Origin: an uncultured Hyphomonas sp.
GTDB taxonomy: Bacteria > Pseudomonadota > Alphaproteobacteria > Caulobacterales > Hyphomonadaceae
Assembly (NCBI RefSeq): GCF_963677035.1
Contig: NZ_OY781472.1
Span: 1,674,001 to 1,738,000 of the forward strand
Direction of reading: 5' to 3'
DNA: 64,000 nt
Shown: positions 8,733 through 32,898 of the stretch, in pieces
Layout of the letters: every line of letters starts with the position of its first letter
Numbering within the stretch: position 1 is the stretch's first letter
The notes under the pieces: generated by a model
The model's database searches: none
The model's input: the letters and a program-made list of their open reading frames with translations, nothing else
What the model was told of the DNA's origin: nothing
Position numbers and translations under genes: made by a program

Positions 8733-8770
8733 CGTATAAACGCCTCCATCGCTCTGTCGCGATGGAGGCG
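8733..8770 (-). terminator. Terminator of the EF-hand gene
   Basis: A perfect 12-pair stem (8741-8752 with 8759-8770) around a six-base loop. On the minus strand it is followed by TTTATA. It lies about 25 bases after the stop of the EF-hand lipoprotein gene. Confidence 0.7.
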
Positions 8771-8794
8771 TCTGGCTTTGCGAGAAGCTGCAGC

Positions 8795-17667: not shown

Positions 17668-18651
17668 ATGCAAATAAATCAAATCTACGGGTTTTCTGTT
17701 GCCCCTATGATGGACTGGACGGACCGGCATTGCCGGGCATTTCACCGGTGCCTGTCGAAACGGGCCTTGCTCTGGACGGAGATGGTGACGGCGGATGCCG
17801 TGATCCACGGTAACCGGCAGCGCCTGATCGGCTTCAACGAGGCGGAGCATCCGGTCGTGCTTCAGCTTGGCGGCAGCGACCCGCAGAAGCTGGCCGAAGC
17901 GGCGCGCATCGCTGAAGGCTTCGGCTATGACGAGGTGAACCTCAATTGCGGGTGCCCGTCCGACCGGGTGCAGTCGGGCGCGTTCGGGGCGTGCCTGATG
18001 GCGCAGCCGGATCTCGTGGCAGACTGCGTTGCCGCAATGAAGGCGGCGGTCTCCATTCCCGTAACCGTGAAGTGCCGGATCGCCATTGACGATTTGCCGG
18101 CGCGCGAAACCCTGTTCACCTTTATCGACAAGGTGTCTGCCGCCGGGTGCGAGGTCTTCACCGTGCATGCCCGGAAAGCCTGGCTGAAAGGGCTTTCGCC
18201 GAAAGAGAACCGGGACATTCCCCCGCTCGATTATGATCTGGTCGCCGATCTGAAGACGGCCCGGCCGGACCTGACCATCATTCTGAATGGCGGCATTCCC
18301 GACATAGCGGCGTGTGCGGAGCACCTGCAACGCTTCGATGGCGTCATGCTGGGCCGGGCGGCTTACCAGACGCCCGCCATTCTGGGGGAGGTCGATGCAA
18401 TTCTGTTCGGGCAGGGGGAGGTCGTTTCGCCCTTTGAGGCGGTCGAGGCTTACCGCCCTTATATGGCGGCACGGCTGGAAGCAGGGGACGGACTGCATGG
18501 CATGACCCGCCACATGCTGGGTCTTTTCAATGGCCGGCCGGGCGCGCGCCTGTGGCGGCGGACCCTGTCGGAACGCGCCCCGCGCGAAGGGGCCGGGCTG
18601 GATGTGCTCGATGCCGCGCTGGACGCCGTGAAAGATCACGCCCCGGCCTGA
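17668..18651 (+). CDS. dusA: tRNA-dihydrouridine(20/20a) synthase
   Basis: 327 residues, the usual DusA length. An FMN TIM barrel begins SVAPMMDWTDRHCR. The catalytic-cysteine motif VNLNCGCPSDRVQSGAFGACLM is typical of DusA, as are FTVHARKAWLKGLSPKENRDIPPL and ILNGGI...GVMLGRAAYQ for FMN phosphate binding. The enzyme reduces U20/U20a in the D-loop of tRNAs. Its stop is 11 bases before a LexA box that belonged to comM before the element inserted. Confidence 0.95.
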   Translation: MQINQIYGFSVAPMMDWTDRHCRAFHRCLSKRALLWTEMVTADAVIHGNRQRLIGFNEAEHPVVLQLGGSDPQKLAEAARIAEGFGYDEVNLNCGCPSDRVQSGAFGACLMAQPDLVADCVAAMKAAVSIPVTVKCRIAIDDLPARETLFTFIDKVSAAGCEVFTVHARKAWLKGLSPKENRDIPPLDYDLVADLKTARPDLTIILNGGIPDIAACAEHLQRFDGVMLGRAAYQTPAILGEVDAILFGQGEVVSPFEAVEAYRPYMAARLEAGDGLHGMTRHMLGLFNGRPGARLWRRTLSERAPREGAGLDVLDAALDAVKDHAPA

Positions 18652-18661
18652 CACCAAATTT

Positions 18662-18676
18662 GTTCTTTATTTGTTC
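18662..18676 (+). promoter_or_regulatory. LexA (SOS) box, orphaned from comM
   Basis: GTTC-N7-GTTC, the alphaproteobacterial LexA site. If the inserted element is removed in silico, this box ends 44 bases before the comM ATG. That is nearly the same spacing as the identical motif before recN (40 bases). Today the next gene downstream on this strand is not comM; the casposon separates them by 14 kb. Confidence 0.75.
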
Positions 18677-18691
18677 GTTTCTGCGTGTTAA

Positions 18692-18710
18692 CCATTTTCC
18701 CGCTGGAAGG
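18692..18710 (+). repeat. Left direct repeat (target site duplication)
   Basis: CCATTTTCCCGCTGGAAGG, identical to 32870-32888. Identity runs two bases further (GA) on both sides, 21 bp in all. It contains the Shine-Dalgarno GGAAGG of comM. It abuts the left terminal inverted repeat exactly. Confidence 0.88.
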
Positions 18711-18748
18711 GATAAGGGAATTGAATAATTAAACGACGAAGTTGACCC
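18711..18748 (+). repeat. Left terminal inverted repeat of the casposon
   Basis: It starts GATAAGG and matches the reverse complement of 32832-32869 at 24 of 38 positions without gaps. The conserved blocks are GATAAGG, AAT, AACGAC and TGACC. A GACGAAGTT word in it (18735-18743) recurs at 18791-18799, and a six-pair hairpin follows at 18747-18763. Confidence 0.72.
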
Positions 18749-18806
18749 ACTCCTTTTGAGTGGCGCCGGTCAGTGCGCAGAATTTGAATTGACGAAGTTA
18801 GTGGCA

Positions 18807-21158
18807 CTACATCTGTAGTTTTCGTCTAACACCAAGCAGTATCAAAAAGAGTGTTGTGATTGATAGCAACGACTGTGCTAGCGATATTGATTTGAACGCA
18901 TATGCGCCGTCGTTTAGCGCAAGGGATGTATAGCAATAGGATGACATTGAATGGCTGTTAGTTTGGGCCATTGCATCACCTCTTGTACATTCGCTAATGA
19001 TATCCTTGGTTGGCCTACTGAAGACCGGGTTTAAATGGTAGAAGGGGCGGGTTTGCCCTTCAATGGCGACCCATGCTGCTGGGGCTATGCGATCGGAAAA
19101 ATTCTCTGGAAGATCCTCGTCCGGGATGAGTGCGTAGAGCGCAAAGGAAATAACTCCAATGCTAAGGAAAGCTAGTATGGATCGTCCAATACTTTCACCG
19201 TAGTCGGACAAAACTCCGTACAAGGCACTAATCCAAGCATCCGATCTAGGGACCTCTTTGTCTCCAAAGCGTAGCTGCCTTGCCTTCAATTCCTCTCGGT
19301 GAAATATTGCCGCCTGCCTGTTATCTTCGTTGTCTTCCATTGCCTTTCTAAGGGTTCTAAACGCACTAGATGCGCTCTTGAAATAGGCATTGTCGAATTC
19401 AATTTTTTCTGGCAGGCCGTAATCTTTTTTGGGATGTTTTAGAATTGCATCTAGCAGCGATCTTAAAGGGCGAATCCAAATTTGCACCCGTCCAACAGTT
19501 CCCACTAAAAATGGGTGAGTCACTCTGTGTGATTGCCACAAAAATCGAGAATTTCGAAAACTAATATTTTGATGGCATATGGCTCCATGAAGCAATAGTA
19601 GTTGGTCGAACACGGACGATTCGAACTTTGTTGTATTGCCAAAAATTCGATTGCTAAAATCTACGGTGCGGTGAAAGCGGACTCGGTTGAAGGATGTTCT
19701 CGAGAACGTATTTGAGGTAGTACTATGGTCGGCGCTGAAATCCGCCAATCCGAAAAAGTTCGTTCTATTAGTTTCGTCACCATCGAAACTAGCGTTGCCA
19801 TTAAAAGGGGTGTTGCGAAATGTGCAATCTCCGACGAATTGTGCGCCATCAAACGAAACGTTGTTCATAAATGTGGAGTGGTCAAAATTCACCGCCCCTA
19901 GAAAGCTCGTTCGGAGGAACGTGGGGCCGGTATGATGCGCGTTGGATCCAGTTCTGAACTCGAATGTGCAATTGGTGAATGATTTTTCGTTGGAAGAGCT
20001 TATCTGCAGCTCTGCTCCATCAAATGATGCATCTCCAGAAAAGCGATTATGGGAGACCGTAGTGTCTTCTAAAACCCTCGAATTGTGTAGGCGAAAATTT
20101 TGGAACTCAACAAGGGATATCTCAAGAACGCCAAAATAAGTATCTGACGCGTCAAAATCTTCGACCTTCATCAGAGTTCCAGAGGTTCCTTGAATTTTAA
20201 GGCTTAATGGCGCATGGGCATTGGGCGCTGAGACCCTGAATTTATTGGGGATGCTGCTGCCGCTTAGTACAATCGAAAAGGGGCGCTCCAAATTCTGAAT
20301 GCTGATGATTTGTCTGAATTTGGCATTGGATACAGTTAATTGTGGACCAAAGTCGATATTCGGATCAATCAGCTCGATAGTCGAGCTAGTGTCTCCAGTG
20401 TCCGTTAAGTTCTGAAGCAGCAGACCTGAACAAAATTTGCTGCATCTGTAGCGCTCGAGATCCGCGAGTTGAGCGGATTGAATTTTTAAATGGTATGGAG
20501 CGATACAGTTTTCGAGCCGCATCCCGTTTGCATTTTCAAAAGACTGTGCGAGCACAAAGCAGTCGATCAGTTCATCAACGGGGCCTATCGCATTTTGTGC
20601 ATTAGGTAGAATACATGATAGTTCGAGGCGGGCGGTGGGAGCAAATAGGTTTAAAGAATTAGGGTCCGCCACTACCATACCGGTGCTTATAAACTGATAT
20701 AGGCTGGAAAACTCGTTGTCCCGTCTGCCGCCAGCCGTATTCCACTTGGCTCTTCCTTCGTTGAGGATGTCGCCATTTAGATCGAAGGGGGGGATATGGC
20801 TTTTGGGCCATGTTGCTCCAAATTCGTCAGTGTACGTTTGTGCTAAAAAATCGTTCCGAAGAAAACTATTTACCCTCGAATTTTGGTGAAAATTGGTGCC
20901 CTGTAATCTTTTGTTCCAGCCATCGATTGTGAAGTCAGCAGATCTCCATTTTGCCAACCAAGCTAACTTTAAAGCGCGACAGTAATCGTCAAAAAACTTG
21001 TCGCCGGGCAGAATAGATAGGCTCTTCAACTTTTCGAGAAGTGCGGATGTTGTTTCAGCGGCATTTGTACCACTTGCTAAACTCCCATTATTCTCAAATG
21101 CTTGCTTGGCGAAGGATTCCGACTGATCGAAAAGAGACTGAAGTTCCGAGCTTTTCAT
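18807..21158 (-). CDS. Pentapeptide-repeat-like membrane protein (casposon cargo)
   Basis: 783 residues. The middle (about 330-560) shows pentapeptide-type beta-helix repeats with Phe every five residues (SGDASFDGAEL, GAVNFDHSTFMNNVSFDGAQF, GNASFDGDETNRTNFFGLADF). The stretch SAFRTLRKAMEDNEDNRQAAIFHREELKARQ is a hallmark of membrane-tethered pentapeptide proteins. Two hydrophobic segments follow near the C-terminus (SILAFLSIGVISFALYALI and SISLAQSLLSITTLFLILLGV). The N-terminal third is unique. The fold suggests a scaffold or DNA-mimic-like surface, but the function is unknown; defence or fitness cargo is possible. It is the leftmost gene of the element, pointing at the left end. Confidence 0.75.
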   Translation of the reverse strand: MKSSELQSLFDQSESFAKQAFENNGSLASGTNAAETTSALLEKLKSLSILPGDKFFDDYCRALKLAWLAKWRSADFTIDGWNKRLQGTNFHQNSRVNSFLRNDFLAQTYTDEFGATWPKSHIPPFDLNGDILNEGRAKWNTAGGRRDNEFSSLYQFISTGMVVADPNSLNLFAPTARLELSCILPNAQNAIGPVDELIDCFVLAQSFENANGMRLENCIAPYHLKIQSAQLADLERYRCSKFCSGLLLQNLTDTGDTSSTIELIDPNIDFGPQLTVSNAKFRQIISIQNLERPFSIVLSGSSIPNKFRVSAPNAHAPLSLKIQGTSGTLMKVEDFDASDTYFGVLEISLVEFQNFRLHNSRVLEDTTVSHNRFSGDASFDGAELQISSSNEKSFTNCTFEFRTGSNAHHTGPTFLRTSFLGAVNFDHSTFMNNVSFDGAQFVGDCTFRNTPFNGNASFDGDETNRTNFFGLADFSADHSTTSNTFSRTSFNRVRFHRTVDFSNRIFGNTTKFESSVFDQLLLLHGAICHQNISFRNSRFLWQSHRVTHPFLVGTVGRVQIWIRPLRSLLDAILKHPKKDYGLPEKIEFDNAYFKSASSAFRTLRKAMEDNEDNRQAAIFHREELKARQLRFGDKEVPRSDAWISALYGVLSDYGESIGRSILAFLSIGVISFALYALIPDEDLPENFSDRIAPAAWVAIEGQTRPFYHLNPVFSRPTKDIISECTRGDAMAQTNSHSMSSYCYTSLALNDGAYAFKSISLAQSLLSITTLFLILLGVRRKLQM

Positions 21159-21247
21159 GGTGTCTTTTGCAACAAGCCTCTAAATTTGTTGAAGATTATT
21201 TCAGCGACGCAATTGTAAAGTCTCGCATGTGAACATGATTCTACTTT

Positions 21248-22366
21248 CTAGTGTATCTGGTGTATTGGCATGATGATATCGATCCGTTCACACTCCAGGG
21301 CAATGAGCTTGGAGAGGGCGCATGATAATCGACAAACACCATTGGCGGTTTGGATAAAATCTTTCGCGCAGAACGAGTTGGATAGTGCTACCTTTAGAAC
21401 AACCCAATCGAAATTGGCCCTAACCGGCTCCATTAAGTCAAATACAAAAGAATCTAGCGCGTAATTTTGGCGTTGGTGAAACACCCCCAACCGCAGGTGC
21501 AAACCATGTGAGATTGCATGGATTCGCAATTTGGCTTCCAAAATAGCGTACGCATAATTCAGCATCGCATTTATGGGGTGAGTGGCATTCCGATTTACGA
21601 ACTTGTCTCCATTCGCAATCGACGTGCGCCCCTTGTAAACCTTCCACCGAGGCGGAACAGGGTATTGTTTTTCCTTGATCCAGCGAAGCTCAATTCCTTT
21701 CCAAGCGCGAAAGTACCGCTTCGCCACGACACCCTCCAAGCTCATGAGCGCATCAACGCTTTCAATGTCTCCAGCTTGAATGCGTTCAACGCCGGACTTG
21801 GTAGATGCTACGGCTTCCAGGCACTCTTTCGTGTCCGGAATAAACTCTTCCAGAACGCGTAAGCTGGATTCGAACTTCTCAAGAATGATGCTTTTCGAGA
21901 ACTCCAATCGCTTCTCGGGATCTGCTGCTGTCTCTAATTGCCATTTCAACAATTCGACATTGGGGCCAGCATGAGGTCCATTCACAATCGTTGTTGAACG
22001 TCCGCGCCAATCGATCCGTGTAAGCGTCACACCTTGCTCATCAAGCCAGTCGAGTACGGCAAGGGAGAAACCTCCTTTGCCATCTACGATGATAATATGT
22101 TCCGGAATGGCTGGGTCGCCGGGGAAGTAGCGGGTGGTCTCTTGCTTTTGCGGATAGTGGGTAAAGCCATCGCAGATCAACAAGGTACCTTTGTCGACGC
22201 GCAGGGAAATTCCATAGCCGGTTAGAATGAGGGGATGTTTCCGGCGATGACGTTGTGCGCGGAAAGGCGCTGAGTTTTCGACTTTTCGAACCCACTTTTC
22301 GGAGCGTTTTCGCCACTCATCTCTAAGGCCTTCGCGTTCAAAATCGCTATGCTCGGAATGGGCCAT
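21248..22366 (-). CDS. cas1: Cas1-like integrase (casposase)
   Basis: 372 residues. The N-terminal beta domain has LILTGYGISLRVDKGTLLICDG and PEHIIIVDGKGGFSLAVLDWLDEQGVTLTRIDWRG. The C-terminal helical catalytic domain shows the Cas1 residues: E211 in LMSLEGVVAKRYFRAW, H297 in LRLGVFHQRQ, and D310/E313 in FDLMEPVRANFDW. NATHPINAMLNYAYAILEA is the usual Cas1 helix. About 40 extra N-terminal residues are basic. There is no Cas2 and no CRISPR array anywhere in the window. In casposons Cas1 alone integrates element ends into a target site, producing a duplication. The gene starts 27 bases after the MerR-like gene, with AGAGG nine bases before the ATG, so the two form an operon. Confidence 0.9.
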   Translation of the reverse strand: MAHSEHSDFEREGLRDEWRKRSEKWVRKVENSAPFRAQRHRRKHPLILTGYGISLRVDKGTLLICDGFTHYPQKQETTRYFPGDPAIPEHIIIVDGKGGFSLAVLDWLDEQGVTLTRIDWRGRSTTIVNGPHAGPNVELLKWQLETAADPEKRLEFSKSIILEKFESSLRVLEEFIPDTKECLEAVASTKSGVERIQAGDIESVDALMSLEGVVAKRYFRAWKGIELRWIKEKQYPVPPRWKVYKGRTSIANGDKFVNRNATHPINAMLNYAYAILEAKLRIHAISHGLHLRLGVFHQRQNYALDSFVFDLMEPVRANFDWVVLKVALSNSFCAKDFIQTANGVCRLSCALSKLIALECERIDIIMPIHQIH

Positions 22367-22393
22367 TTTATCCTCTCAAAATAAGAGGAAATA

Positions 22394-23506
22394 CTACGCC
22401 AATTTGACCTTAGATGCATGTAATTCCTGGATTAATTTTTCCAATTGTTCGTTGTTTTGAAGGGCGCTCCGCAACCGTTTTGGGGTTAGTATTTCTGCCA
22501 ATGGTCCGGACTTCTGAGAAAGGTGTCGCAGTTCCTGGGATATTTCCAACAGTCGTGCCGCTTGCTTCGCTTGTTCGCGAGTTTCTCCGAGCGAAGGGGT
22601 GTCGAATGCTGAATCTGCTCGGACTTGCATCCAACACACGATGATACCTGCCTGAAAAGATGCAGGAGCGCGTTCGAAAATCCAGCGAGCGGTTTTCAAG
22701 CCGAACGCTCGCGTTCCGAAAATCCAGGATGTCGCTGCATGAAAGTCGGATGCCGCTTTCATCCCGCAGAAGAAGGTATCCCGAGCGTCTGCGAGGTGCA
22801 TCATACCCGCACGGCTCGAAAGAGCGCCTTTTATCGGCGCATTCTGAATTTCACCGAACGCCTTCAAGATCCCAGGAAGCACATCAAAAATCTGAATGCG
22901 TTGGCCTAAGACCGAATCCTGATTGGTCTTACGCATACCCATTAGCAGCGAAACACCATTCAGTCGCTGTACTTTGTCTTCCAAGCCAATGTCCGGATCG
23001 AATGATCCTGCAATAGCGTCCAGGAGAATTCGAAGCGCGTCGGCCTGGTCTTCAGCAGAAACATTGCGTTTGGTGTTGGAGAGGGGAGGCGGAAGCTTCC
23101 CGGTATTAGCGAGCTCCAGGATTTCTCCATCAAGTGCATCGCCCGTTGCTTCGTCATCGTCTGCACGGCGAACCAGGTTCGTGATCCGCTTTGACCATTT
23201 TTGAACGTCCTTCGCGCTGCTCTCGATGAGTGGTCGCCAATAGCGCTCATCAACGTCATATCCGCGAAGCCAAAGCTGCCAGCCGACAAAATCGGCTTTC
23301 TTCTTGATCTCAAACAAGCGGGTGATTTCGAAGATCTGTGCAACAGATGAAATTGGATGCCTCGCTATTCCGGATTCCCTTGATGGCGGTAACAGGCCGA
23401 GCCGTCTCCAGCTCCTAAGTTCTGAGTCTTTTACGCGCACACCCTGTTCGGCCAACTTCGCATGAAGTTGGTCGCCAGTTAGATAGCTCTGATCTTCAAT
23501 AGCCAT
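22394..23506 (-). CDS. MerR-like helix-turn-helix protein upstream of cas1
   Basis: 370 residues from the ATG at 23506, chosen because GGAAAG lies just upstream and because upstream codons lack protein character. The N-terminus is a MerR-type winged HTH: LTGDQLHAKLAEQGVRVKDSELRSWRRLGLLPPSRESGIARHPISSVAQIFEITRLFEIKKKADFVGWQLWLRG. About 250 helical residues of unknown function follow. Being directly upstream of cas1, it may regulate the module or act as a DNA-binding partner that brings Cas1 to the ends, a role HTH proteins have been suggested to play in casposons. The latter is inference. Confidence 0.7.
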   Translation of the reverse strand: MAIEDQSYLTGDQLHAKLAEQGVRVKDSELRSWRRLGLLPPSRESGIARHPISSVAQIFEITRLFEIKKKADFVGWQLWLRGYDVDERYWRPLIESSAKDVQKWSKRITNLVRRADDDEATGDALDGEILELANTGKLPPPLSNTKRNVSAEDQADALRILLDAIAGSFDPDIGLEDKVQRLNGVSLLMGMRKTNQDSVLGQRIQIFDVLPGILKAFGEIQNAPIKGALSSRAGMMHLADARDTFFCGMKAASDFHAATSWIFGTRAFGLKTARWIFERAPASFQAGIIVCWMQVRADSAFDTPSLGETREQAKQAARLLEISQELRHLSQKSGPLAEILTPKRLRSALQNNEQLEKLIQELHASKVKLA

Positions 23507-23538
23507 AGGGCTTTCCACGATCTGGTGCGCTTCATATG

Positions 23539-23595
23539 GCGAATTTGGGGATTCGCGCGTGTGATTTCTGCCCCGCTCCACAAATTATTGGAGCG
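23539..23595. promoter_or_regulatory. Two palindromes in the divergent casposon promoter region
   Basis: In the 93-base gap between the divergent core operons there are two perfect dyads. GCGAAT-N6-ATTCGC lies at 23539-23556 and CGCTCCA-N8-TGGAGCG at 23574-23595. The right arm of the second overlaps the ribosome-binding site of the plus-strand HTH gene, a position suited to autorepression. Candidate binders are the MerR-like protein or the HTH protein. Confidence 0.55.
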
Positions 23596-23599
23596 AGAT

Positions 23600-24196
23600 A
23601 TGGCCAAGAAACGCAGGAACTATGCCGAAGAGTACCGACGGCGTGTTGAAAGAGGACTGGCGCGAGGCCTGACCAAGCAAGAAGCCCGTGGTCATGGTGG
23701 TCTGAAGGAAAAGCAAAAGCGTACCAGAAAAGAAAGCCGTCTCGAGACTCTTGAATCCACAGATCCTTTGTTCCGAGGGTTCGAAGCCGTTCGACAGGGC
23801 GCTGCAATGACGCCAACCGCTAAGCAGCTTGGGATTTCTCCTGAGCGGTTGAGCCGCTTCATTAAAGAAAACGCTGATATCGACCGGAAGTCGGGTCGTA
23901 TTGTCATTGTCGAGAGCAAGTTGATCTCAATTGTTCCGATATTCACCCAGGGGCGCAGCAAGAAGATTGCGGTAAATGCATCGATCCGTGACCGCATCAC
24001 GGAATATATGACGGCTGTCGAAAATTTTCTCCAAAGCCGTGACCCGGAGTTCTTGTCGCCTTTTGTTGGCGAGCGAGTGAAAGATACTCGCAACAGATCC
24101 TATCCGCTCGAAACCAATCCGAACCGATTGCTGGAATTGGAAGCCGCTGGCGAGTTGGACTTTGTGATTGTCTACAAAGGGCTCGTAGTACGATGA
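23600..24196 (+). CDS. Helix-turn-helix protein of the casposon core
   Basis: 198 residues from the ATG at 23600, preceded by GGAGCGAG. The N-terminus is strongly basic (AKKRRNYAEEYRRRVERGLARGLTKQEARGHG), followed by an HTH-like TPTAKQLGISPERLSRFIKEN and a beta-rich part (IVIVESKLISIVPIFTQGRSKKIAVNA). The basic N-terminus is of a kind also seen in phage and mobile-element proteins. It overlaps the HNH gene by four bases, so they are cotranslated. Likely DNA binding; exact role unknown. Confidence 0.7.
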   Translation: MAKKRRNYAEEYRRRVERGLARGLTKQEARGHGGLKEKQKRTRKESRLETLESTDPLFRGFEAVRQGAAMTPTAKQLGISPERLSRFIKENADIDRKSGRIVIVESKLISIVPIFTQGRSKKIAVNASIRDRITEYMTAVENFLQSRDPEFLSPFVGERVKDTRNRSYPLETNPNRLLELEAAGELDFVIVYKGLVVR

Positions 24197-24573
24197 GCCT
24201 CTTCGACGACTACAAACGCCATCGCGACCGCTACAACCGTCTGCGCAAACTCAATCAGCTTTTAGGATCAGAATACGAATGTTGCCCTTGGTGCGGACGT
24301 CCGCATGTGCGTCTGGAAATGCATCATTATGCACGTGAAAAACATGACCCAATTGCCGTGATTGCATGTCGCGATTGCCACGACCGCTTTCGCGACCGAG
24401 AGCAATTCGAACATCCGCCTCTGACGGAAGATCTAGGAGATCACCGAGAACGACAGCGCAGGCAATTGCTCGCCTTTGCCGACATGCTCGAATTCGTGGC
24501 CAATGAACTTCGGTCAATTGTAAACTCAATCACTTACAAAATGGGAACGAAGATCATCGACAAGGAACAGTAG
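24193..24573 (+). CDS. HNH endonuclease-like protein
   Basis: 126 residues carrying a His-Me-finger/HNH pattern with zinc cysteines: C31-PW-C34, then LEMHHYAREKHDP (H44, H45) and ACRDCHDRF (C59, C62, H63). The ATGA overlap with the preceding HTH gene and a 32-base gap to polB show one operon. HNH nucleases are a recurrent casposon component, proposed to act in excision or in processing replication intermediates. The C-terminal 50 residues are helical and unassigned. Confidence 0.78.
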   Translation: MSLFDDYKRHRDRYNRLRKLNQLLGSEYECCPWCGRPHVRLEMHHYAREKHDPIAVIACRDCHDRFRDREQFEHPPLTEDLGDHRERQRRQLLAFADMLEFVANELRSIVNSITYKMGTKIIDKEQ

Positions 24574-24605
24574 ATCAACCCAAACCAGAAAGACTTTCGC
24601 GCGGT

Positions 24606-27600
24606 ATGAAAGAAGAAATTCCTCTTGAGCCGCGCGAGATTCAGCTTCGGGCCTATATTGAGGGCGAAGCATCCACATCAGTTGTTGGCCTGGAAAAGCC
24701 TCAGCCGTCCAATCGCGTTTTGATATTTGACACAGAAACGACGGCGGACGCTGCACAACAGCTAAGATTTGGCGCGTTTCAAATTCGAGATGAAGAGGAA
24801 CTGTTCCGTCAGGGTCTGTTCTATGACCCTGCAGGGCTAACTGCAGATGAAATCGGAACATTGGAGGCATACACCTTCGGGACCGATTTGGAGTTCATGC
24901 CGGTTGAGGAATTCGTTGAAGAGATCTTCTTCCAAGAATGCGCCGATATGGATGGTGTTTGTGTCGGCTTCAATCTTCCCTTCGATCTGTCGCGCCTTGC
25001 AATCGATCATGGGACCGCAAAGCGCGGGAAGAGCGGAGTGTTCCATCACGGCTTTTCATTGAAGCTTAGCCCGAGCGAATATCGCTCACGAGTCCGGGTG
25101 AAGCATCTTTCGCATCGCGCCGCCTTCATCCAATTTGCAGATCATAAGCGCCCGCAAAAGAAGAACGATAAGCGGAAGGCTAAATATGAGCGGCCTAGAG
25201 GCTTCTTCGTGGATGTCAAAACTCTGGCGGGGGCGCTCCTTGCAGAATCTCACTCGCTTGAGAGTTTGTCGAACGCACTCAAAACAGCAACAAAAAAATC
25301 AGCGAGCGAAGACCATGGTGCAGAGCTAAAGCCTGACTATATCAAATACGCCCTAGATGATGCGCAATGCACATGGGAATGCTACGCCGACCTCATCAAA
25401 CGGCTTCACGCACATAATTTACCAAATACACATGCGCGTGAGCTTTTCAGCGAAGCCTCACTTGGGAAGGCATATCTGAGAGCATTGGGTGTGAAGCCTT
25501 GGCTATCCGTCCAACCAGATTTTCCGAAGACGCGAATAGGGGAGATCCTGAGCACCTATTATGGCGGCCGTTCGGAAGTGAACATTCGTCGGAAAATCAG
25601 CGAGACCGCATATTGCGATTTCCTGTCTATGTATCCGACCGTGAATACGCTCATGGGGTTATGGCGTTTCGTCATTGCGGATGGCGTTTCTGAAGAGGAT
25701 GCCACCGAAGACGTTCGGAATATCCTGGAGACCTGGACGCCCGAAGACCTCCTGCAGCCTTCGAATTGGAAGCGATTGCATTGCGTTGTGCAGATTGAGC
25801 CGAATGATGATGTGCTACCAGTTCGGGCGGTTTATGGTGATGCGCTCCCCAGGAACGAATCTAACAAGATCGCCAATATCGGATTGAACCGTCTGACATG
25901 CGAAGCGCCGCTTTGGTTCACGCTCGCAGATTGTCTCGCGTCGAAGTTCCTTTCCGGCAGGATTCCCAACCTCCAACAAGCCATTCGGTTCAAGCCATTG
26001 GGAGTTCAGGAGGGCCTCAATCCTATCGCGGTAAGCGGAAACGGCGATTATCTAGTCGACCCAGCTAACGATGACTTCTTTAAACGGATCATCCAATTGC
26101 GTCGCAGCGTTGTTCAGCGGCGCGACGCAAGCGACGGCGCGGAAAAGGAAAAATACGATTCCGAGCAGAAGGCGCTCAAGATCCTCGCCAACTCAACAAG
26201 CTATGGAATCTTTGTTGAGACTCTTGTTGAAGACCATGACACTCAGAAGAGCATCACGCGATATGGCTATGATGGCATTCCGACAAAGATAAGATCCAAA
26301 GTGGACGAAAAGCCGGGAAGATATTTCCACCCGCTATTGGCGACGCTCATCACAGGTGCTGCGCGGTTGATGCTGGCATTGTCGGAACGAGTTGCTTTGG
26401 ATCAGGGGTTGGATTGGGTCTTCTGCGATACGGATGGGATCGCATTCGCGAAACCTGACGGTATAAGCCGGGGCGAATTCATCGAACGGGTTCGATCGGT
26501 TTGCAATTGGTTCAAGCCGCTCAACCCCTACGACGCCGAAGACTCAATTCTTCAAATGGAAGATGAGAACTTCGAGGTTGGAGACAGGGAAGGGGATTGG
26601 GCGAAAGCACCACCTCTCTATTGTTATGCGGTTTCAGCGAAACGGTACGCTCTCTTCAACATCGACGGAGGCCAAGTCGAAATCCGTAAAGCTTCAGCGC
26701 ATGGTTTGGGGCATTTACTACCGCCGTATTCAGATCCCGATAAAGGCAGGAAGCAGACCGCTAAAGTTGCTTATTGGCATAAGGAACATTGGACGGCGAT
26801 TTGCGAAGCAGCGCTTGAGGGGAGGGATCACAATGGAGCGTTCATCGCCGATGCCAGGTTGGAGAAGCCGGCCGCTAGTCGTTACGCAGCGAATACGCCC
26901 GACCTTCTGAAATGGTTCTCAGATTTCAATGAGGGTTTGGAGCGCGCACAACAGGTCAAGCCATTCAATTTCCTACTGACGTTCCAGGCGAAGAATCTAG
27001 ATCGTCTAGCTGCTAGCGATCTTGAGGCAGCATCTTGGGTGGCGAAGCACAGACCGAAACCTAGACCTGCTGGCCCGTATGAAAAGGATCCGGAAAAGTC
27101 GGCTGTGATGGCGTTTGATAGGGCGACACATGAGCCAGTGCCGTCCAGGTGGTTGAAGACCTACACCGAAGTGCTCCAGGATTATCATCTACATGCCGAA
27201 GCCAAATTTCATGGAGGTTTCGACAATGCGAGGGGACGACTTCAACGCAGGCATGTCGACGCGTTCGCGATCCGGCACATCGGCAAAGAAGCGCATAATT
27301 GGGAAGAGGACTATTTTGTCGGAACCGACGCCGACAGTGCTATTGTGCACGGCGATGCGCTTATCAATCGAACTTGGGCCATTGAAACCATTCGGGCAGC
27401 CAAGGAACGGTTTGGCGTTCGGAATCTTTGCAACGCAGCGCGAGTTGGCGACAATTTACTGAAGGCGACTTGCGATAGCGCGAATGTCGCCAAGCATGAA
27501 CCCATCGTGAGATTGGTGCGGGCTGCACATGTATTGGGTGTTGAGGATACGGATGCGGCTGGAAGGACGCTCCGAGTAGTGGGGGCGCTAAACGAAGCGA

Positions 27601-27728
27601 TCGCCGAACATGGAGTTGGCGTTGTCGCTAAGCAACTTGGATTTGACCTCTCCAATTTAAGGAAAGTCGCAGATGGCAAACGCAAGGCTAGTTCCTATCT
27701 CATTGAACTGATTGAGAAAAACATTTAG
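24606..27728 (+). CDS. polB: Family B DNA polymerase of the casposon
   Basis: 1040 residues. 3'-5' exonuclease: ExoI DTETT (D42, E44), ExoII GFNLPFD (N123, D127), ExoIII YALDDA (about 248-253). Polymerase: motif A DFLSMYPT (D338), motif B ILANSTSYG (N529), motif C FCDTDG (D608, D610). All metal ligands are intact, so both activities are plausible. The last 150 residues extend beyond the catalytic core. They end in an HTH-like segment (NEAIAEHGVGVVAKQLG then FDLSNLRKVADGKR), perhaps for binding element DNA. It would fill gaps or copy the element during transposition. It is the last gene of the HTH-HNH-polB operon. Whether it is RNA- or protein-primed cannot be judged. Confidence 0.92.
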   Translation: MKEEIPLEPREIQLRAYIEGEASTSVVGLEKPQPSNRVLIFDTETTADAAQQLRFGAFQIRDEEELFRQGLFYDPAGLTADEIGTLEAYTFGTDLEFMPVEEFVEEIFFQECADMDGVCVGFNLPFDLSRLAIDHGTAKRGKSGVFHHGFSLKLSPSEYRSRVRVKHLSHRAAFIQFADHKRPQKKNDKRKAKYERPRGFFVDVKTLAGALLAESHSLESLSNALKTATKKSASEDHGAELKPDYIKYALDDAQCTWECYADLIKRLHAHNLPNTHARELFSEASLGKAYLRALGVKPWLSVQPDFPKTRIGEILSTYYGGRSEVNIRRKISETAYCDFLSMYPTVNTLMGLWRFVIADGVSEEDATEDVRNILETWTPEDLLQPSNWKRLHCVVQIEPNDDVLPVRAVYGDALPRNESNKIANIGLNRLTCEAPLWFTLADCLASKFLSGRIPNLQQAIRFKPLGVQEGLNPIAVSGNGDYLVDPANDDFFKRIIQLRRSVVQRRDASDGAEKEKYDSEQKALKILANSTSYGIFVETLVEDHDTQKSITRYGYDGIPTKIRSKVDEKPGRYFHPLLATLITGAARLMLALSERVALDQGLDWVFCDTDGIAFAKPDGISRGEFIERVRSVCNWFKPLNPYDAEDSILQMEDENFEVGDREGDWAKAPPLYCYAVSAKRYALFNIDGGQVEIRKASAHGLGHLLPPYSDPDKGRKQTAKVAYWHKEHWTAICEAALEGRDHNGAFIADARLEKPAASRYAANTPDLLKWFSDFNEGLERAQQVKPFNFLLTFQAKNLDRLAASDLEAASWVAKHRPKPRPAGPYEKDPEKSAVMAFDRATHEPVPSRWLKTYTEVLQDYHLHAEAKFHGGFDNARGRLQRRHVDAFAIRHIGKEAHNWEEDYFVGTDADSAIVHGDALINRTWAIETIRAAKERFGVRNLCNAARVGDNLLKATCDSANVAKHEPIVRLVRAAHVLGVEDTDAAGRTLRVVGALNEAIAEHGVGVVAKQLGFDLSNLRKVADGKRKASSYLIELIEKNI

Positions 27729-27800
27729 CTCAAAAGTAGTGTCGGGAACTTCTTGTGATTGTTGTTTGCTGGACGATGGGTATAGAGGCACGTTGAGATA

Positions 27801-28979
27801 ATGAGCATTAGCCAAGTGACGAGTCGCTCTGCTGTTTTAGATGCAATCGCAGAATTTCGAGCTGGTGGCGACGCATTCTTAGAACGATACGACCGCGGCC
27901 AGGCTCTCGAGTATTTTCTGAAATTTGAAGGTGAGTTACTTCCCTCCAAAGCCATTCTAGCCGGCGCTTTTCAGCACCAGCATGGCGAAAGCATCGGGAA
28001 CTTTGTTGGCGGTAAGAGGGTTGCTGAGCAGCTTCAGAAGCTAGGCTTTGAAGTTGTGAGAATTCACAACGGCGAAGAACTGCCCATTGAAACTGAAGTT
28101 GGTGATCCTGCGCTTACGGCTCTGCCATTTGTTGTCGGCGAGGAATACAATCGACGCGCTGATATTCACGGTGTTTACGGTGGGCAACGGCAAGGTGGAA
28201 TTTCAACACCCGCTCAGTTTCCCTATGTCTTCATCTTTACCGGAGATTCTGGTGAACAATACGGCTACAAAGATGGCTGGCTGGATGATGGAAAAACATA
28301 TCTCTACACGGGTGAAGGCCAAAGAGGGGATATGGTCTTCAAGGGTGGAAATGCTGCCATCCGAGATCATGCAGCGAGAGGCAAGTCTCTGCTGCTCTTC
28401 CAGGCGTTAGGGAAAAGCAGGCCTGTTCGATTTTTGGGATACTTCAATTGTGCCTCCTGGGAGTTCGGCCAAGGCGTGGATACAGACGGTGCACTTCGTC
28501 AAACGATTCAGTTTCAATTGGTTCGTGACGATACGGCCACAAATGATGACGAAGAATTTGAGGATGAAAAGGCTGAAAAAGGTGCCTCACTCGAAGATCT
28601 ACGAAAGGCCGCCTACAAAGCGTTGCCGGCACCTAGAAATGCCACTCCCAAGGCCGCGGCGGGCCTTTACCGCAAACGCAGTGCAGCCGTGAAGGCATAT
28701 GTTCTCGCCCGTGCTGCTGGAGTTTGTGAACTGACTGGCGAACCGGCTCCTTTCAAAACGAAAGATGGCAAACCTTATCTAGAAATTCACCACACACTTA
28801 GGTTGTCAGATGGCGGACCAGACCATCCGCGTTGGGTGGCAGCGATTTCCCCGAATGCGCACAGGGAAATACACTTTGGTGCGGGCGGCCAGGTCCTGAA
28901 TGAGAAACTGAAATCGTTGATTGCTGAAATAGAGGGAGCCGACTTCGATCTAGGGACCGCTGAAGACAACGGCCACTAG
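27801..28979 (+). CDS. ScoMcrA-like SRA-HNH endonuclease (type IV restriction-like)
   Basis: 392 residues. An N-terminal domain (LEYFLKFEGELLPSKAILAGAF) is followed by a ScoMcrA-type SRA-like domain (about 105-215: YNRRADIHGVYGGQRQGGIST, YGYKDGWLDDGKTYLYTGEGQRGDM, GGNAAIRDHAARGKSLLLFQ). The C-terminal HNH nuclease has CELTGEPAPF, LEIHHTLRLSDGGPDHP and ISPNAHREIHFG (His near 329-330, Asn/His near 352-354). Enzymes of this build cut DNA bearing methylcytosine or phosphorothioate marks, so this is probably a modification-dependent defence nuclease carried as cargo. The last 30 bases overlap the convergent MORN-like gene. Confidence 0.88.
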   Translation: MSISQVTSRSAVLDAIAEFRAGGDAFLERYDRGQALEYFLKFEGELLPSKAILAGAFQHQHGESIGNFVGGKRVAEQLQKLGFEVVRIHNGEELPIETEVGDPALTALPFVVGEEYNRRADIHGVYGGQRQGGISTPAQFPYVFIFTGDSGEQYGYKDGWLDDGKTYLYTGEGQRGDMVFKGGNAAIRDHAARGKSLLLFQALGKSRPVRFLGYFNCASWEFGQGVDTDGALRQTIQFQLVRDDTATNDDEEFEDEKAEKGASLEDLRKAAYKALPAPRNATPKAAAGLYRKRSAAVKAYVLARAAGVCELTGEPAPFKTKDGKPYLEIHHTLRLSDGGPDHPRWVAAISPNAHREIHFGAGGQVLNEKLKSLIAEIEGADFDLGTAEDNGH

Positions 28980-29675
28980 ATTTCCGTCTTGATCTTGCAC
29001 AATCCCATTTTCAGGTTGAAGCCGACCATTCAGGTCTTTGAGTATTCCCGTGAAACGGCGTGATCCATCATATTTTTTGTAGACGCCATACCCGCCGCCG
29101 ACTCCGTAATAGGTGCCCGTAAAGGTATCTCCGCCCGCATACACCGCAATGCCATCACCGGGTAACACGTTGATGGTGCCTGGATGGCGCAGTTCGCCTA
29201 TGAAGGATTTGATGCGATTGTGCTTGCCACCTGCTACTTTCACAGACCCCCAGACCGAGTTTGTTGGATAAGTGATGAAGTAGAACAGACCTGTAGCAAC
29301 TGCACCGCTTGGGTACTCAATGGCACCAGCCATGTACTGTCCCGTCGCATTCTCAACAGGTGTGCCGTCAAATACAATCTCTTCAGAGATGACCTCACGG
29401 CGTGTTGAATAGTCCGCTACATTCTCAAACTTTCGATAGTCCACTTCAGCTTGTTTCGCCGCTTGCTTCGCGATGGCATACGCCTTCCGCGCTGCGGCGA
29501 GTCTGTCATTGAGCCGAGCATCAGGCAGAGCAGTCTTCGGTTCTTCGGGCCAGTTGAACTCGGTGTAACTCGTCCAGGTCTCTGCCGGCGCTTGATTTGG
29601 TGTTCCCGCAATTGCAATCGGTGCAACGGCAATTATCGCCGTCAATCCGATCAAGCTCAAACTTCTTTGAAGCAT
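28950..29675 (-). CDS. Secreted MORN-like repeat protein (cargo)
   Basis: 241 residues from the ATG at 29675, which has GGGAG six bases upstream; the ATG at 29681 touches that site and is less likely. There is a signal peptide (MLQRSLSLIGLTAIIAVAPIAIAG), a helical segment (NDRLAAARKAYAIAKQAAKQAEVDYRKFEN) and a C-terminal part with MORN-like glycine/aromatic repeats (GQYMAGAIEYPSGAVATGLFYF, GDTFTGTYYGVGGGYGVYKKYDG, RRFTGILKDLNGRLQPENG). Probably periplasmic; function unknown. It is divergent from the XRE gene. Confidence 0.65.
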   Translation of the reverse strand: MLQRSLSLIGLTAIIAVAPIAIAGTPNQAPAETWTSYTEFNWPEEPKTALPDARLNDRLAAARKAYAIAKQAAKQAEVDYRKFENVADYSTRREVISEEIVFDGTPVENATGQYMAGAIEYPSGAVATGLFYFITYPTNSVWGSVKVAGGKHNRIKSFIGELRHPGTINVLPGDGIAVYAGGDTFTGTYYGVGGGYGVYKKYDGSRRFTGILKDLNGRLQPENGIVQDQDGNLVAVVFSGP

Positions 29676-29759
29676 AACCATCTCCCAAGATGAAGAATAT
29701 CAATAAGATAGGGAATATATACCCTAGTGATATTGCGTTTGGCTTAACTAATTGGCCGA

Positions 29760-29978
29760 ATGTTTTGGGAATCGGTCGTTGGCCGTAACATTCGTGTTAT
29801 TCGCAAAGAGCGAGGGACTAGCCAGGAGCAACTTGCTCACACAGCTGGCATAGACCTTCGCTATTTGGGTGGAATAGAGCGAGGCGAATTCAATCCTACA
29901 GTCGCTGTACTAGGCCAGATCGCAGAAGCGCTAGATGTGAATCCTAGCGTTTTCTTTAATTACGCTGCCGATGAGTAA
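29760..29978 (+). CDS. Small XRE (Cro/CI-type) regulator
   Basis: 72 residues, essentially one HTH_3 domain: VGRNIRVIRKERGTSQEQLAHTAGIDLRYLGGIERGEFNPTVAVLGQIAEALDV. The ribosome-binding site is weak. It sits divergently from the MORN-like gene and ahead of the ABC pair, so it may repress one or both. Small regulators of this type also accompany restriction genes, so control of the ScoMcrA-like nuclease is another possibility. Confidence 0.8.
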   Translation: MFWESVVGRNIRVIRKERGTSQEQLAHTAGIDLRYLGGIERGEFNPTVAVLGQIAEALDVNPSVFFNYAADE

Positions 29979-30256
29979 ATGCCACCGAATCCGCCTTATT
30001 CGCTCAAACCTGATCACTAGAATTGCCGTTGCACCTTCTTCTCAAAATTGAGTGGAAATTGCTCTTGGTTGACGCAGTTGCGTACGTCTTAGGCATCGCA
30101 GCCATATCAACCGGAGGCGGCATTTGAGAAAGAGGCTATGGATGTTTGATATGGTCAGCGTGGGTTCAGGATTGGTCTTTTCTGGTCAAAAGAGCTTTTT
30201 TTATTGAACTGCATGTGGTGTCTCATCCAGATTGAAATTTGAGGTTGGGATGGGTC
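29979..30256. other. Gap between XRE gene and ABC gene
   Basis: No gene seen. At 30176-30201 a six-pair A/T stem (TCTTTT with AAAAGA) is followed by GC and seven T, a weak terminator-like structure that may end the XRE transcript. Confidence 0.35.
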
Positions 30257-31726
30257 ATGCGGATTGATAGATTTGAGTCCTTCAAAGCAGTTCAGCAAGC
30301 CACGGAGGAAGTTCTCGCGTACACTGAAAAATGGCTTTCTGGGGAGAACAAGTCATTCCTTACAGATAAAGACCTACTTGAACGACTAAAAAGGCTGAAT
30401 TTGGCTTTGAAGTCGGAAGTATCTGAAGAGCAACTACTGCTCGATATTCGTGAGCTCGCGATGGGTTCAAGACTGGCCAGTTTGGGTACTCAAGTTCAAA
30501 AAATCATCCAATATTATAACGATCACTTAGCACCTGAAGTCAGTATACTTGAGGGTTCAGCTTCTGAAGAGTTGCTTAAAACTACGCGCTCAATGATTTC
30601 TGACCTTGTCGAAAGTTGGGTGGAGTTGCTCTCCCAACGGAGAGCCCTTTCTTTGGAGGAGATAGCGAAACTTCCTGGGCTTGCTCTTGAGGACATTTCT
30701 GAGCCGCAGGCAAGGTACTTCCTAGAGGAACTAAGACGCACCCGCGAGGCTGAAAATGAGCCGGGTGACTCGATAAAGCAGCCCATCTTGAGGTGCGTTG
30801 ATATGCAATTCCAGCGCGGCGCTGCCTTTAAGCTCGGTCCTGTAAACTTAGAAATTCATCGAGGCGATGTGGTAGCCTGTGTAGGGCCTAACGGAAGCGG
30901 CAAGACTACGTTGTTGCGCCTACTTGCGGGAAGCTTGCGCCCCACTTTTGGTAGTGTTGATATTCCGTCGATTCAGTCGACAACGCCATCGAAAACAAGG
31001 AGGTATCAGGCGCATTGGCCAAGGCGGCGAAAGGTCGTCGCCTACACGAGTCAGTCGCCTAAGACGCTCGCAGGTCGTATTGATAAATCGATATCTTTTG
31101 CTTTGGCGCAGGCGGGTGTCGTTGGTGAAGCCAATGATGTGATGACACAAATTCACATTGATCGATTTCGTCTTGTGGGGAAAAGTTCTAAAAAATGGAA
31201 CACGCTATCTCAAGGCGAGAAGACCCTCGCTAGGTTGGCGTACTCCTTCGCAAAGCAGCCTGATATCCTCATACTGGATGAGCCCCTCGCGCCTCTTGAC
31301 TATCTTGGCGTAATTCAAGTGACAAATGATCTTCGAAGAATTGCATCGGGAGAATTCTGGCTGCCACCAGCTATTATAATCAGTACACATCATCTATCTG
31401 AATTGGGTTGGTGGGCGGACAAAGTGCTCTTTTTGCAACAAGGGGCGCCACGCATCCTTGATGCGACAAGGGGAAGCGATTTTGTGTTTGAGATAGTGCT
31501 CGCAGCCAAATCGGACCCCAGTTTAATGGTTGAGGATCTTAAGCGGGCAGGGTTTTTGGTGCACAGATTGTTTGAGCGGTTGATCGTTAAGGGCGCATCT
31601 AAGTCCGAACTATGGGAGCAAATAAGACGTCATAATAGCGACGTTTTTGAGGTTCTCTCCGTGCAGAATATTACAAAATCAGCGAAGAGATTGTTCCTTG
31701 AAGAGATTTATAAGGATCTGGGGTAG
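30257..31726 (+). CDS. ABC-type ATPase with long N-terminal extension (cargo)
   Basis: 489 residues from the ATG at 30257. About 180 N-terminal residues are mostly helical with no known domain (ESFKAVQQATEEVLAYTEKW and on). A complete ABC domain follows: Walker A GPNGSGKTT (about 210-218), signature LSQGE, Walker B ILILDEPLAPLD and switch His in STHHLSELG. About 100 further C-terminal residues follow. The stop is immediately followed by the start of a membrane protein gene. This looks like a one-ATPase, one-permease system, but neither substrate nor family is recognised. The N-terminal helical extension is unusual for an exporter ATPase. Confidence 0.78.
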   Translation: MRIDRFESFKAVQQATEEVLAYTEKWLSGENKSFLTDKDLLERLKRLNLALKSEVSEEQLLLDIRELAMGSRLASLGTQVQKIIQYYNDHLAPEVSILEGSASEELLKTTRSMISDLVESWVELLSQRRALSLEEIAKLPGLALEDISEPQARYFLEELRRTREAENEPGDSIKQPILRCVDMQFQRGAAFKLGPVNLEIHRGDVVACVGPNGSGKTTLLRLLAGSLRPTFGSVDIPSIQSTTPSKTRRYQAHWPRRRKVVAYTSQSPKTLAGRIDKSISFALAQAGVVGEANDVMTQIHIDRFRLVGKSSKKWNTLSQGEKTLARLAYSFAKQPDILILDEPLAPLDYLGVIQVTNDLRRIASGEFWLPPAIIISTHHLSELGWWADKVLFLQQGAPRILDATRGSDFVFEIVLAAKSDPSLMVEDLKRAGFLVHRLFERLIVKGASKSELWEQIRRHNSDVFEVLSVQNITKSAKRLFLEEIYKDLG

Positions 31727-32764
31727 ATGTTGAAAGATGCGGCGATACGTTTGGTTCTTGAAATTAGAAATTTTGGCGCCGGGCTCGATCACCATATGAT
31801 GAGCAATCACTTCGGCATTTGGTCTCATAAGCTTCATTTGTTTGTATTTTTCGCCGCATACTGCACTGTATTTGGCGTAATTATGATACTTGTTTTGCCA
31901 CCGACAGGTGCGCTAACAGCTGTAGGCGTCATTAGTATTTGGGCGTGGTTGGTTTGGTTCACGGCGGCTTATCGATCTGATGGCCATCTGTATGATGGGA
32001 ATGGTTTGTACCCTCTCATATGGTCTGCCATCCTATTTTGTCAGCCAACGATAACAATATACGGCCTAGTTGGAATGCCGTTTGGTCCCCAATTCTTGTT
32101 GATAGTTGTTTTTGCGGGACTTGTTCTGCCATTTCTGTACGCGATGTACACGTTTGGGGCGGTGCATTCGGTCGGAATGGCATCTGTCGCGTCAATAATT
32201 TCGGCAACGGTACTGATCTTTCTGGTGTCACCAGCATTCATGTGGTTGGTCCACTCGTTTGTAAGCGGACAAAGCAACGCGGATTCGGTTGCAATGTTGT
32301 CACCGCGAAGCAGTGAAGAGATTGCAGGTAATTTTACCATTGAGACGACGCCTGACCCAAAAGATTCCTCGTGGATGGGGTGGGTCTTCTTCGGGGGGGG
32401 GTTGGTGATTACATTTTATCTCAATTTGTTGGTCTCCGCGATAAAGGGGGTAGAGAAGATAATTCAATTACAGGTTCCGGAGCGGGTCGTTGATAAGCAC
32501 GAGTGGCTCACGGAAATGGGCGAGAAAAGCATCTCTATCATAATCGTGATAGTTGCTTCAGAGTTCATAGTTCGGTTTTTATGGAATGCCAGTGTAAGGT
32601 TGCTAGGCGGTGAGTATGGGGTGGCCATGGGGAGTGGCGCATGGCACGGAACCTCGCCTACGGTAATTTCAGCGATCCTTTGTTGCCTGTTTGTCGTTAT
32701 GTGGACTTATGAAGTGCAACCTGTGATCAATGACTATAGAGCGCAGGCTTGCTACTCGGATTAG
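31727..32764 (+). CDS. Polytopic membrane protein paired with the ABC ATPase
   Basis: 345 residues with about seven or eight hydrophobic segments (for example LHLFVFFAAYCTVFGVIMIL, FLLIVVFAGLVLPFLYAMY, SIISATVLIFLVSPAFMWLV). A loop between them is soluble and acidic (SSEEIAGNFTIETTPDPKDSS). It begins at the base after the stop of the ATPase gene, so it is its likely permease partner. No family is recognised. It ends only about 70 bases before the right terminal inverted repeat and is the last gene of the element. Confidence 0.65.
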   Translation: MLKDAAIRLVLEIRNFGAGLDHHMMSNHFGIWSHKLHLFVFFAAYCTVFGVIMILVLPPTGALTAVGVISIWAWLVWFTAAYRSDGHLYDGNGLYPLIWSAILFCQPTITIYGLVGMPFGPQFLLIVVFAGLVLPFLYAMYTFGAVHSVGMASVASIISATVLIFLVSPAFMWLVHSFVSGQSNADSVAMLSPRSSEEIAGNFTIETTPDPKDSSWMGWVFFGGGLVITFYLNLLVSAIKGVEKIIQLQVPERVVDKHEWLTEMGEKSISIIIVIVASEFIVRFLWNASVRLLGGEYGVAMGSGAWHGTSPTVISAILCCLFVVMWTYEVQPVINDYRAQACYSD

Positions 32765-32831
32765 AGGGATGGAGGCTGCCGAATAGAGCAGTGGACTGAT
32801 GCATGCGCAGTATGCTTACCGTCTTGGTGGT

Positions 32832-32869
32832 AGGTCAGTGTTGTCGTTATGTCCGTGGATTGCCTTATC
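32832..32869 (-). repeat. Right terminal inverted repeat of the casposon
   Basis: Its reverse complement begins GATAAGGCAAT and contains ATAACGACAA and CTGACC. It aligns without gaps to the left repeat at 24 of 38 positions and abuts the right direct repeat. Confidence 0.72.
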
Positions 32870-32888
32870 CCATTTTCCCGCTGGAAGG
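32870..32888 (+). repeat. Right direct repeat (target site duplication), carries the comM ribosome-binding site
   Basis: Identical to 18692-18710. The GGAAGGGA at 32883-32890 is the Shine-Dalgarno of comM (ATG at 32899), so the insertion duplicated the site and left comM translatable. Confidence 0.88.
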
Positions 32889-32898
32889 GAAACGGGCG

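Follow-up and report, generated by a model that had tools for sequence, protein, structure and literature searches.

A probable family 3 casposon upstream of comM in a Hyphomonas genome, and the hairpins often duplicated by its bacterial relatives

What kind of mobile element is an AT-richer island that carries a lone cas1 gene, and how do elements of this type select the places where they insert? Both questions are raised by a locus in the genome of an uncultured Hyphomonas sp. (assembly GCF_963677035.1, contig NZ_OY781472.1), of which a stretch of 64,000 nucleotides, hereafter called the window, was analysed; coordinates below are those of the window. The island lies between a dihydrouridine synthase gene (17668-18651) and a gene that we take to be comM (start 32899), and its GC content of 0.45-0.53 (19-32 kb) is lower than that of the left flank (0.57-0.63, 14-18 kb) and of the right flank (0.63-0.68, 33-37 kb). 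We consider it very probable that the interval 18709-32871 is a bacterial family 3 casposon lying between two copies of a 21-bp repeat, whose Cas1 protein is predicted to have joined its ends to the host DNA. An earlier note, made from the sequence alone, had also read the island as a casposon, and the features on which this reading depends were found: Cas1, a family B DNA polymerase (PolB), an HNH-type protein, helix-turn-helix (HTH) proteins, inverted ends, a direct repeat and a single-copy site in a relative. Apart from the branch to which PolB belongs, every defining feature of casposons that is open to test here is present. The element is another instance of an established family, and the new part is the choice of target by such elements, namely hairpins and the recA promoter.

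The assignment begins with Cas1, which scores 127 bits against its Pfam family and whose residues E211, H297, D310 and E313, presumably catalytic, are invariant in 29 aligned rows. When a profile of these 29 proteins was compared with the PDB, the M. mazei casposase 6opm ranked first (143 bits), with a CRISPR Cas1 next (90 bits), and the predicted fold (mean predicted local distance difference test score, pLDDT, 85) likewise matched 6opm best (E 1.7e-19, versus 4.6e-14 for the next structure). In a tree of 61 rows, which included no known archaeal casposase, the window Cas1 falls in a seven-row clade with Henriciella marina (P0088) and locus L004 (support 100/98), two of the seven rows, L004 and P0004, being the same protein. 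The PDB match, the fold match and the clade shared with H. marina together support placing this Cas1 with the casposases. The profile and phylogeny checks proposed in the earlier note gave a casposase-type result, and a placement inside the clades of CRISPR Cas1 was looked for and not found.

Homology to CRISPR Cas1 does leave room for a different account, in which the island is what remains of a CRISPR-Cas adaptation locus after the loss of its array and of cas2. We give this account almost no credence. The host chromosome is a single contig of 3,580,092 bases (completeness 100), and it contains one cas1, that of the island, and no cas2 anywhere; moreover, no CRISPR-like array was found at 14,000-37,000 of the window, the only stretch searched. 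Neither of the two components that mark an adaptation locus, cas2 and a repeat array, was thus found over these spans, while the casposase is the best match by both profile and fold, and the gene is accompanied by a PolB module and matched ends. The lone Cas1 and the lower GC content of the island, as well as the lack of cas2, array and other recombinase that the earlier note had described, are borne out over the same spans and among the island proteins.

The casposon reading also draws on the genes beside cas1. The cas1-HTH-HNH-polB module is kept in relatives, with an HTH-type protein in most PolB loci and an HNH protein in many. Across 25 PolB rows, residues of the motifs that we take to be Exo II, Exo III and Pol A-C are invariant, and those of Exo I (D42/E44) are nearly so, in accord with the earlier description of a polymerase with all catalytic motifs. 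Family profiles confirmed Cas1 but left both PF00136 on PolB itself and the HNH-type proteins of the island below their cut-offs, which are curated ones for the latter. The HNH and HTH proteins reported earlier accordingly hold as parts of a module conserved in relatives, but the first scores under those cut-offs and the HTH label is given by analogy. A homologue search with the MerR-like protein of the island returned three proteins, the window's own among them.

Evidence for insertion is provided by the ends of the island. The direct repeat CCATTTTCCCGCTGGAAGGGA is perfect over 21 bp at 18692-18712 and 32870-32890, and these are the only two sites in the 3.58-Mb genome even with up to three mismatches allowed. 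The inverted ends match at 25 of 38 positions in the register used, a value reached by none of 200,000 random island pairs; leaving out the four bases within the direct repeat, they match at 21 of 34, which is reached by a fraction of 1e-5 of random pairs. Both kinds of repeat had been recognized before, but the counts given then (24 of 38, and a perfect 19 bp) are replaced by these. The end sequences, written as GGGATAAGG/CCTTATCCC, resemble those of kin: GGGATAAGG and ACGAC occur at both ends and are common to the casposons of H. marina and L004, TGACC at both ends is also common to L004, and the left end additionally has GGGATAAGGGAA in common with these kin ends. A TGACCAC motif recurs approximately 30 bp inside the inverted ends of L009, L011, L017, L022 and L044, and is possibly the binding site of one HTH protein.

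A search for the empty site, with a query made of both host flanks and a single copy of the repeat between them, covered 61 genomes, host included. Some match was obtained in 57 of these, many covering one flank alone. In a genome of the same genus that does not carry the island (G007), all 681 bases of the query were matched at 94% and the junction reads as one uninterrupted CCATTTTCCCGCTGGAAGGGAAACGGGCGATG; additional genomes of the genus have an uninterrupted junction at 71-86% identity. The single-copy site that the earlier note had proposed to seek in relatives therefore exists, and the contrary finding that it had considered, the same genes at this place in related strains but with no repeats, was looked for and did not appear.

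When the ends are aligned by hand with those of kin, the duplication proper appears to be 15 bp, ATTTTCCCGCTGGAA. Its apparent length of 21 bp would reflect a target flanked by CC and GGGA, as the element's own ends are. If three or four terminal G are given to the element, most repeats of other elements shrink to approximately 14-17 bp. Duplications of the A. boonei casposon are about 14-15 bp (PMC6614799), and the overlap of ends and duplications was already noted for many casposons (PMC4046053).

Matched ends, a duplication, a single-copy site and open reading frames for Cas1 and PolB are all present at this locus. In the mechanism that we propose, the element would be copied by its own PolB, a Cas1 assembly would hold both GGG...CCC ends and attack the target strands approximately 15 bp apart, and gap repair would then duplicate the target. 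Two points weigh on the other side. Transposition, with Cas1 making both joints and PolB copying the element, is a prediction from sequence. The PolB model (mean pLDDT 86) matches family B polymerases of both the pol alpha and phi29 folds, and homologues are labelled PF03175 in some cases, PF00136 in others and with no family in many, such that labels and folds fit an RNA-primed branch as well as a protein-primed one.

One might also suppose that the island was inserted by some other enzyme, such as a tyrosine or serine recombinase or a DDE transposase, and that cas1 and polB are cargo. Genes such as those for the SRA-HNH protein and the ABC pair are indeed typical of many islands, and the repeat has a length like that of some attachment sites. 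This explanation is nevertheless very improbable, given that family scans found no recombinase or transposase family among the island proteins, that the same kind of ends occurs on many cas1-polB elements of which few share the cargo of this one, and that PolB had no match in 72,556 plasmid records and no match of the Cas1 profile was confirmed in viral contigs.

Casposons of this type are not rare in Alphaproteobacteria. A scan of species genomes gave 101 loci that encode a relative, 80 of which were kept, and both Cas1 and PolB matches (E <= 1e-4) were present in 43 of the 80, all bacterial, a count that includes some weak matches and some loci that share a genome. Many of the remaining loci are cut by contig ends or archaeal, the latter probably representing CRISPR Cas1. 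Within the family of the host, 12 of 105 genomes encode a casposase-type Cas1 (E 1e-40), and across the class 3 of 385 do so (E 1e-50, at most five candidates being scored per genome), with the host included in both counts. These numbers do not sustain the earlier view that bacterial cases are few, nor is an alphaproteobacterial case a novelty, the casposon of H. marina having been published in 2014 (PMC4046053). A plasmid or phage origin was considered and rejected on the plasmid and viral searches mentioned above. Nineteen plasmid records do have a Cas1 match, but in 18 of these identity does not exceed 30%, and the annotation is mostly that of a CRISPR cas1. A Bradyrhizobium sp. 2S1 plasmid (NZ_CP147719.1, 223043-223391) has a 46% match over 27% of Cas1 where no gene is annotated, which is perhaps a casposase remnant.

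Membership of family 3 is supported by the clade that the window Cas1 shares with the published member of H. marina DSM 19595 (HenMar-C1, PMC4046053), which probably corresponds to our locus L152. The two elements also share the cas1-HTH-HNH-polB module and the GGGATAAGGGAA end. They differ in cargo, as none of the cargo proteins of the window element was found at L152, and in target, which is the hairpin repeat CTCCCGGATGCGGGAG in H. marina and the comM leader here. The archaeal families 1, 2 and 4 (A. boonei, M. mazei) are alike in Cas1 fold (6opm), PolB, inverted ends and a duplication of about 14-15 bp. Published targets in those families include the aEF-2 gene and tRNA genes at their 3' ends (PMC4046053), whereas the present set mostly has duplicated hairpins or the recA promoter as targets. 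No C-terminal HTH of the kind that family 2 Cas1 carries was found in the window Cas1.

What, then, do these elements have in common at their targets? In a two-ended search of 34 loci and the window, inverted ends flanked by direct repeats of 14-26 bp were obtained for 24 loci and for the window, 25 elements in all. Ten loci gave no convincing pair (L004, L014, L023, L026, L027, L033, L035, L036, L040 and L044), of which L023 was later resolved as G045. Adding two elements in H. marina and one each in G127, G045 (same place as L023) and G284 brought the total to 30, one of the scorings behind these additions having left out L158 and L160-L167. When ends were rescored strictly inside the repeats, the same pair was top in all 25 of the first set, and in 24 by the inside ends alone (the exception is L012).

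A stem score of at least 7 is found at the duplicated target in 24 of the 30 elements. In 21 (20 of the first 29, and G284), the stem is centred on the repeat within 1 bp and no more than 0.35% of 2000 random host positions are as good. For the first 29 elements, the combined p-value for centred stems is 4e-33 when all host positions serve as the control and 1e-27 when only intergenic positions do. These values treat elements as independent, which is not quite true, and in some cases the intergenic control comprises little sequence (139 bp for L018). The G284 element was obtained after the rule had been stated, and its stem scores 9, with none of 2000 random positions as good. In eight of the 23 stem-bearing elements of the first 29, at least four T in a row adjoin the stem on one of the strands, a feature of intrinsic terminators. 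Judged from these sites, the target across relatives is usually a GC-rich hairpin, either a terminator or a dispersed palindrome, and mostly with its dyad at the middle of the repeat; Cas1 may recognize this hairpin.

Individual sites provide further illustrations. Elements that are close kin occupy different sites in two pairs (L024/L025 and L030/L032), which points to repeated choice of hairpins, although the stem of L024 itself is weak. Marinicauda salina carries L030 and L032, two closely related casposons at two different hairpins. H. marina carries two casposons with different ends (L152/L168/L169 and L153), both in copies of one dispersed palindrome, which is present in nine copies (control 0), four of them flanking the two elements. 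The pattern CCCCGG-N7-CCGGGG occurs 43, 19, 0 and 69 times in the hosts of L012, L011, L041 and L044 (controls 1, 0, 0 and 1), and is the target's own form for L012 and L011 only, since the arms are six bases apart in L041 and L044. Directly downstream of a gene read as folE, the L016 element occupies a stem with T after it, and same-genus genomes have at this place either the uninterrupted stem then T (for example L185, L188 and L197) or a different stem. Where one end alone was available, a hairpin was seen by eye beside the end in L004, L015, L026, L027, L033, L036, L044, L046 and L058 and, imperfectly, in L019, while L009 resembles L010; several matches of the pattern search behind this set look like chance. 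No hairpin was seen by eye beside the one-sided ends of L035, L040 (Nitrosomonas) and L049, and so the rule may not reach all lineages.

The hairpin rule faces several contrary observations. Six of the 30 elements have a stem score below 7 (the window, L010, L024 and three at recA), and the stems of L020, L025 and L030 are off-centre or not significantly centred, so that these nine form the remainder outside the centred set. The window stem, TTTCCC-GCTGGAA-GGGAAA, is only 6 bp and off-centre; 15 of 299 random host positions are as good, and 8% equal it when centring is required. The idea that comM leaders across the genus share a hairpin was also examined and rejected, as RNAalifold found no pairs, and hence no consensus stem, in 20 leader sequences. 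Given this weak stem and the lack of a common one, we make no claim that the window insertion obeyed the hairpin rule. A search of Rfam over 18,000-33,500 gave no match.

Two other readings of the target sites need to be weighed. In the first, there is no hairpin recognition: the casposase needs CC...GG approximately 15 bp apart, or matches to its GGGG/CCCC ends, and palindromes fit by accident. A CC beside the cut matters for the A. boonei casposase (PMC6614799), and 20 of the 25 repeats in the first set start with C and finish with G. However, arms are often 9-13 bp and extend past CCCC/GGGG into both flanks, with the dyad at the repeat middle, and the recA repeats have neither CC at the start nor GG at the end; we regard this reading as unlikely, but not as far-fetched. 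In the second, hairpins are simply safe intergenic places, where selection would leave the surviving insertions. An insertion into a terminator or a dispersed palindrome does no harm, and insertion sequences are known to take palindromes such as REP as targets (PMC1525189). We find this improbable, since intergenic controls give almost the same significance (p ~1e-27) and since safety by itself gives no reason for the stem to be centred within 1 bp, as it is in 21 of 30 elements.

At some sites, the target is a regulatory region instead. Three elements (L028, L038 and L023/G045) lie in the promoter directly upstream of recA, a gene recognized by translating the flank, and their site there is at a LexA-type box, GAAC-N7-GAAC; L050, seen from one end only, has the same position. 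In the Cas1 tree L028 and L038 are sisters (100/98), and L023 joins them with weaker support (93/78); the partial Cas1 of L050 is 64% identical to that of L028, compared with 45% for the next protein outside the L028/L038 pair. By this grouping and this identity the four belong to one lineage, all found members of which are at recA.

The window element lies beside a box of the same type, judged by what we take to be the LexA consensus of Alphaproteobacteria. The box, GTTCTTTATTTGTTC, is 15 bp upstream of the repeat, and it or a close form is present upstream of comM in many genomes of the genus, in a search aimed at the box. The pattern has 113 matches on both strands of the host genome, compared with 72 for a reversed control, so that by reckoning approximately 0.2% of positions are within 30 bp of a match; the proximity is a post hoc observation. 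A link with the SOS response is suggested by the recA lineage and by the present insertion, which lies between comM and a LexA-type box. As a consequence of the insertion, comM is parted from its box by 14 kb and may now be transcribed from the cargo genes, which end at 32764. A single SOS-targeting clade made up of the elements with a MerR-like protein was considered and rejected: the window Cas1 groups with H. marina and the recA group lies elsewhere, and H. marina and L004 have the MerR-like protein yet use hairpins.

Taken together, we tentatively propose, while judging it somewhat short of probable, that alphaproteobacterial casposases read a DNA hairpin rather than a sequence, cut symmetrically about its dyad and duplicate the palindrome in the way that CRISPR repeats are duplicated, and that the recA lineage has shifted instead to the recA promoter with LexA bound to it, which would tie transposition to SOS. 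Insertion sequences in REP palindromes and group IIC introns at terminators are like these casposons in their choice of target, and the enzymes of these introns and of insertion sequences are unrelated to the casposase. A casposon target rule of this kind, with hairpins or terminators as the duplicated target, or recA, was not described in the open literature that was searched, subscription papers and supplements being outside that scope. The nearest published statement, in a review, is that the A. boonei casposase recognizes a palindrome beside its target, namely the repeat that makes up the TpsiC loop of tRNA-Pro (PMC9939771).

The features of the locus are compiled in the table. Among the cargo, the SRA-HNH protein matches the phage protein family phrog_15103 (1.7e-69) and type IV restriction models of PADLOC, and by these matches it would be cargo shared with phages. 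Elsewhere in the window, a second stretch of lower GC at 1-9000 encodes a response regulator (1859-2542) and a large sensor of PAS-GGDEF-EAL-like type (3444-7361), both named by reading the sequence.

Table. Features of the casposon and its surroundings, in window coordinates
Feature	Position	Strand	Basis or remark
LexA(SOS)-type box GTTC-N7-GTTC, host, outside element	18662..18676	+	upstream of comM in uninterrupted site
Left copy of 21-bp direct repeat	18692..18712	+	probable 15-bp target duplication 18694-18708
Left terminal inverted repeat, GGGATAAGGGAAT...ACGAC...TGACC	18709..18747	+	end alignment with kin
Pentapeptide-repeat protein, cargo	18807..21158	-	PF13576, 3e-12
Cas1 (casposase), 372 aa	21248..22366	-	no further domain found; invariant E211, H297, D310, E313
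MerR-like HTH protein	22394..23506	-	label from L004 and L028 relatives; no family match of its own
Conserved cas1-polB module protein, putative start	23600..24196	+	HTH by analogy with published casposons; no family match
Small HNH-type nuclease	24193..24573	+	below curated cut-offs
Family B DNA polymerase, 1040 aa	24606..27728	+	motifs, homologues, model
SRA-HNH type IV-restriction-like protein, cargo	27801..28979	+	family matches
Unknown protein, cargo	28950..29681	-	relative in casposon locus L041
Cro/C1-type HTH regulator	29760..29978	+	family match
ABC-type ATPase, cargo	30239..31726	+	family matches
Probable membrane protein, cargo	31727..32764	+	hydrophobic stretches by eye; no family match
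Right terminal inverted repeat	32833..32871	-	end comparison
Right copy of 21-bp direct repeat	32870..32890	+	probable 15-bp duplication 32872-32886
comM, Mg-chelatase-like ATPase, host gene with split leader	32899..34446	+	single-copy site in relatives

Casposon targets bear on the origin of CRISPR repeats, which have been proposed to derive either from casposon ends or from the duplicated target (PMC6452270), the idea of the ends having been given up in favour of the duplicated target in a later review (PMC9939771). CRISPR adaptation by Cas1-Cas2 is alike in that Cas1 duplicates a palindromic target (PMC4940900); it is unlike the present case, which has no Cas2 and no array and in which the inserted DNA is a 14-kb element. 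The copying of CRISPR repeats by Cas1 enzymes may be explained in part by hairpin targets of this kind. If bacterial casposons duplicate palindromes, they would give the ancestral target the shape that the idea has lacked and would open it to direct test, for which 30 natural targets, relatives with an uninterrupted site and Cas1 proteins with no known extra domains are to hand. The link with SOS is testable in ordinary laboratory strains. If the proposal is true, such casposases would serve as living models for the conversion of a transposon target into the CRISPR repeat.

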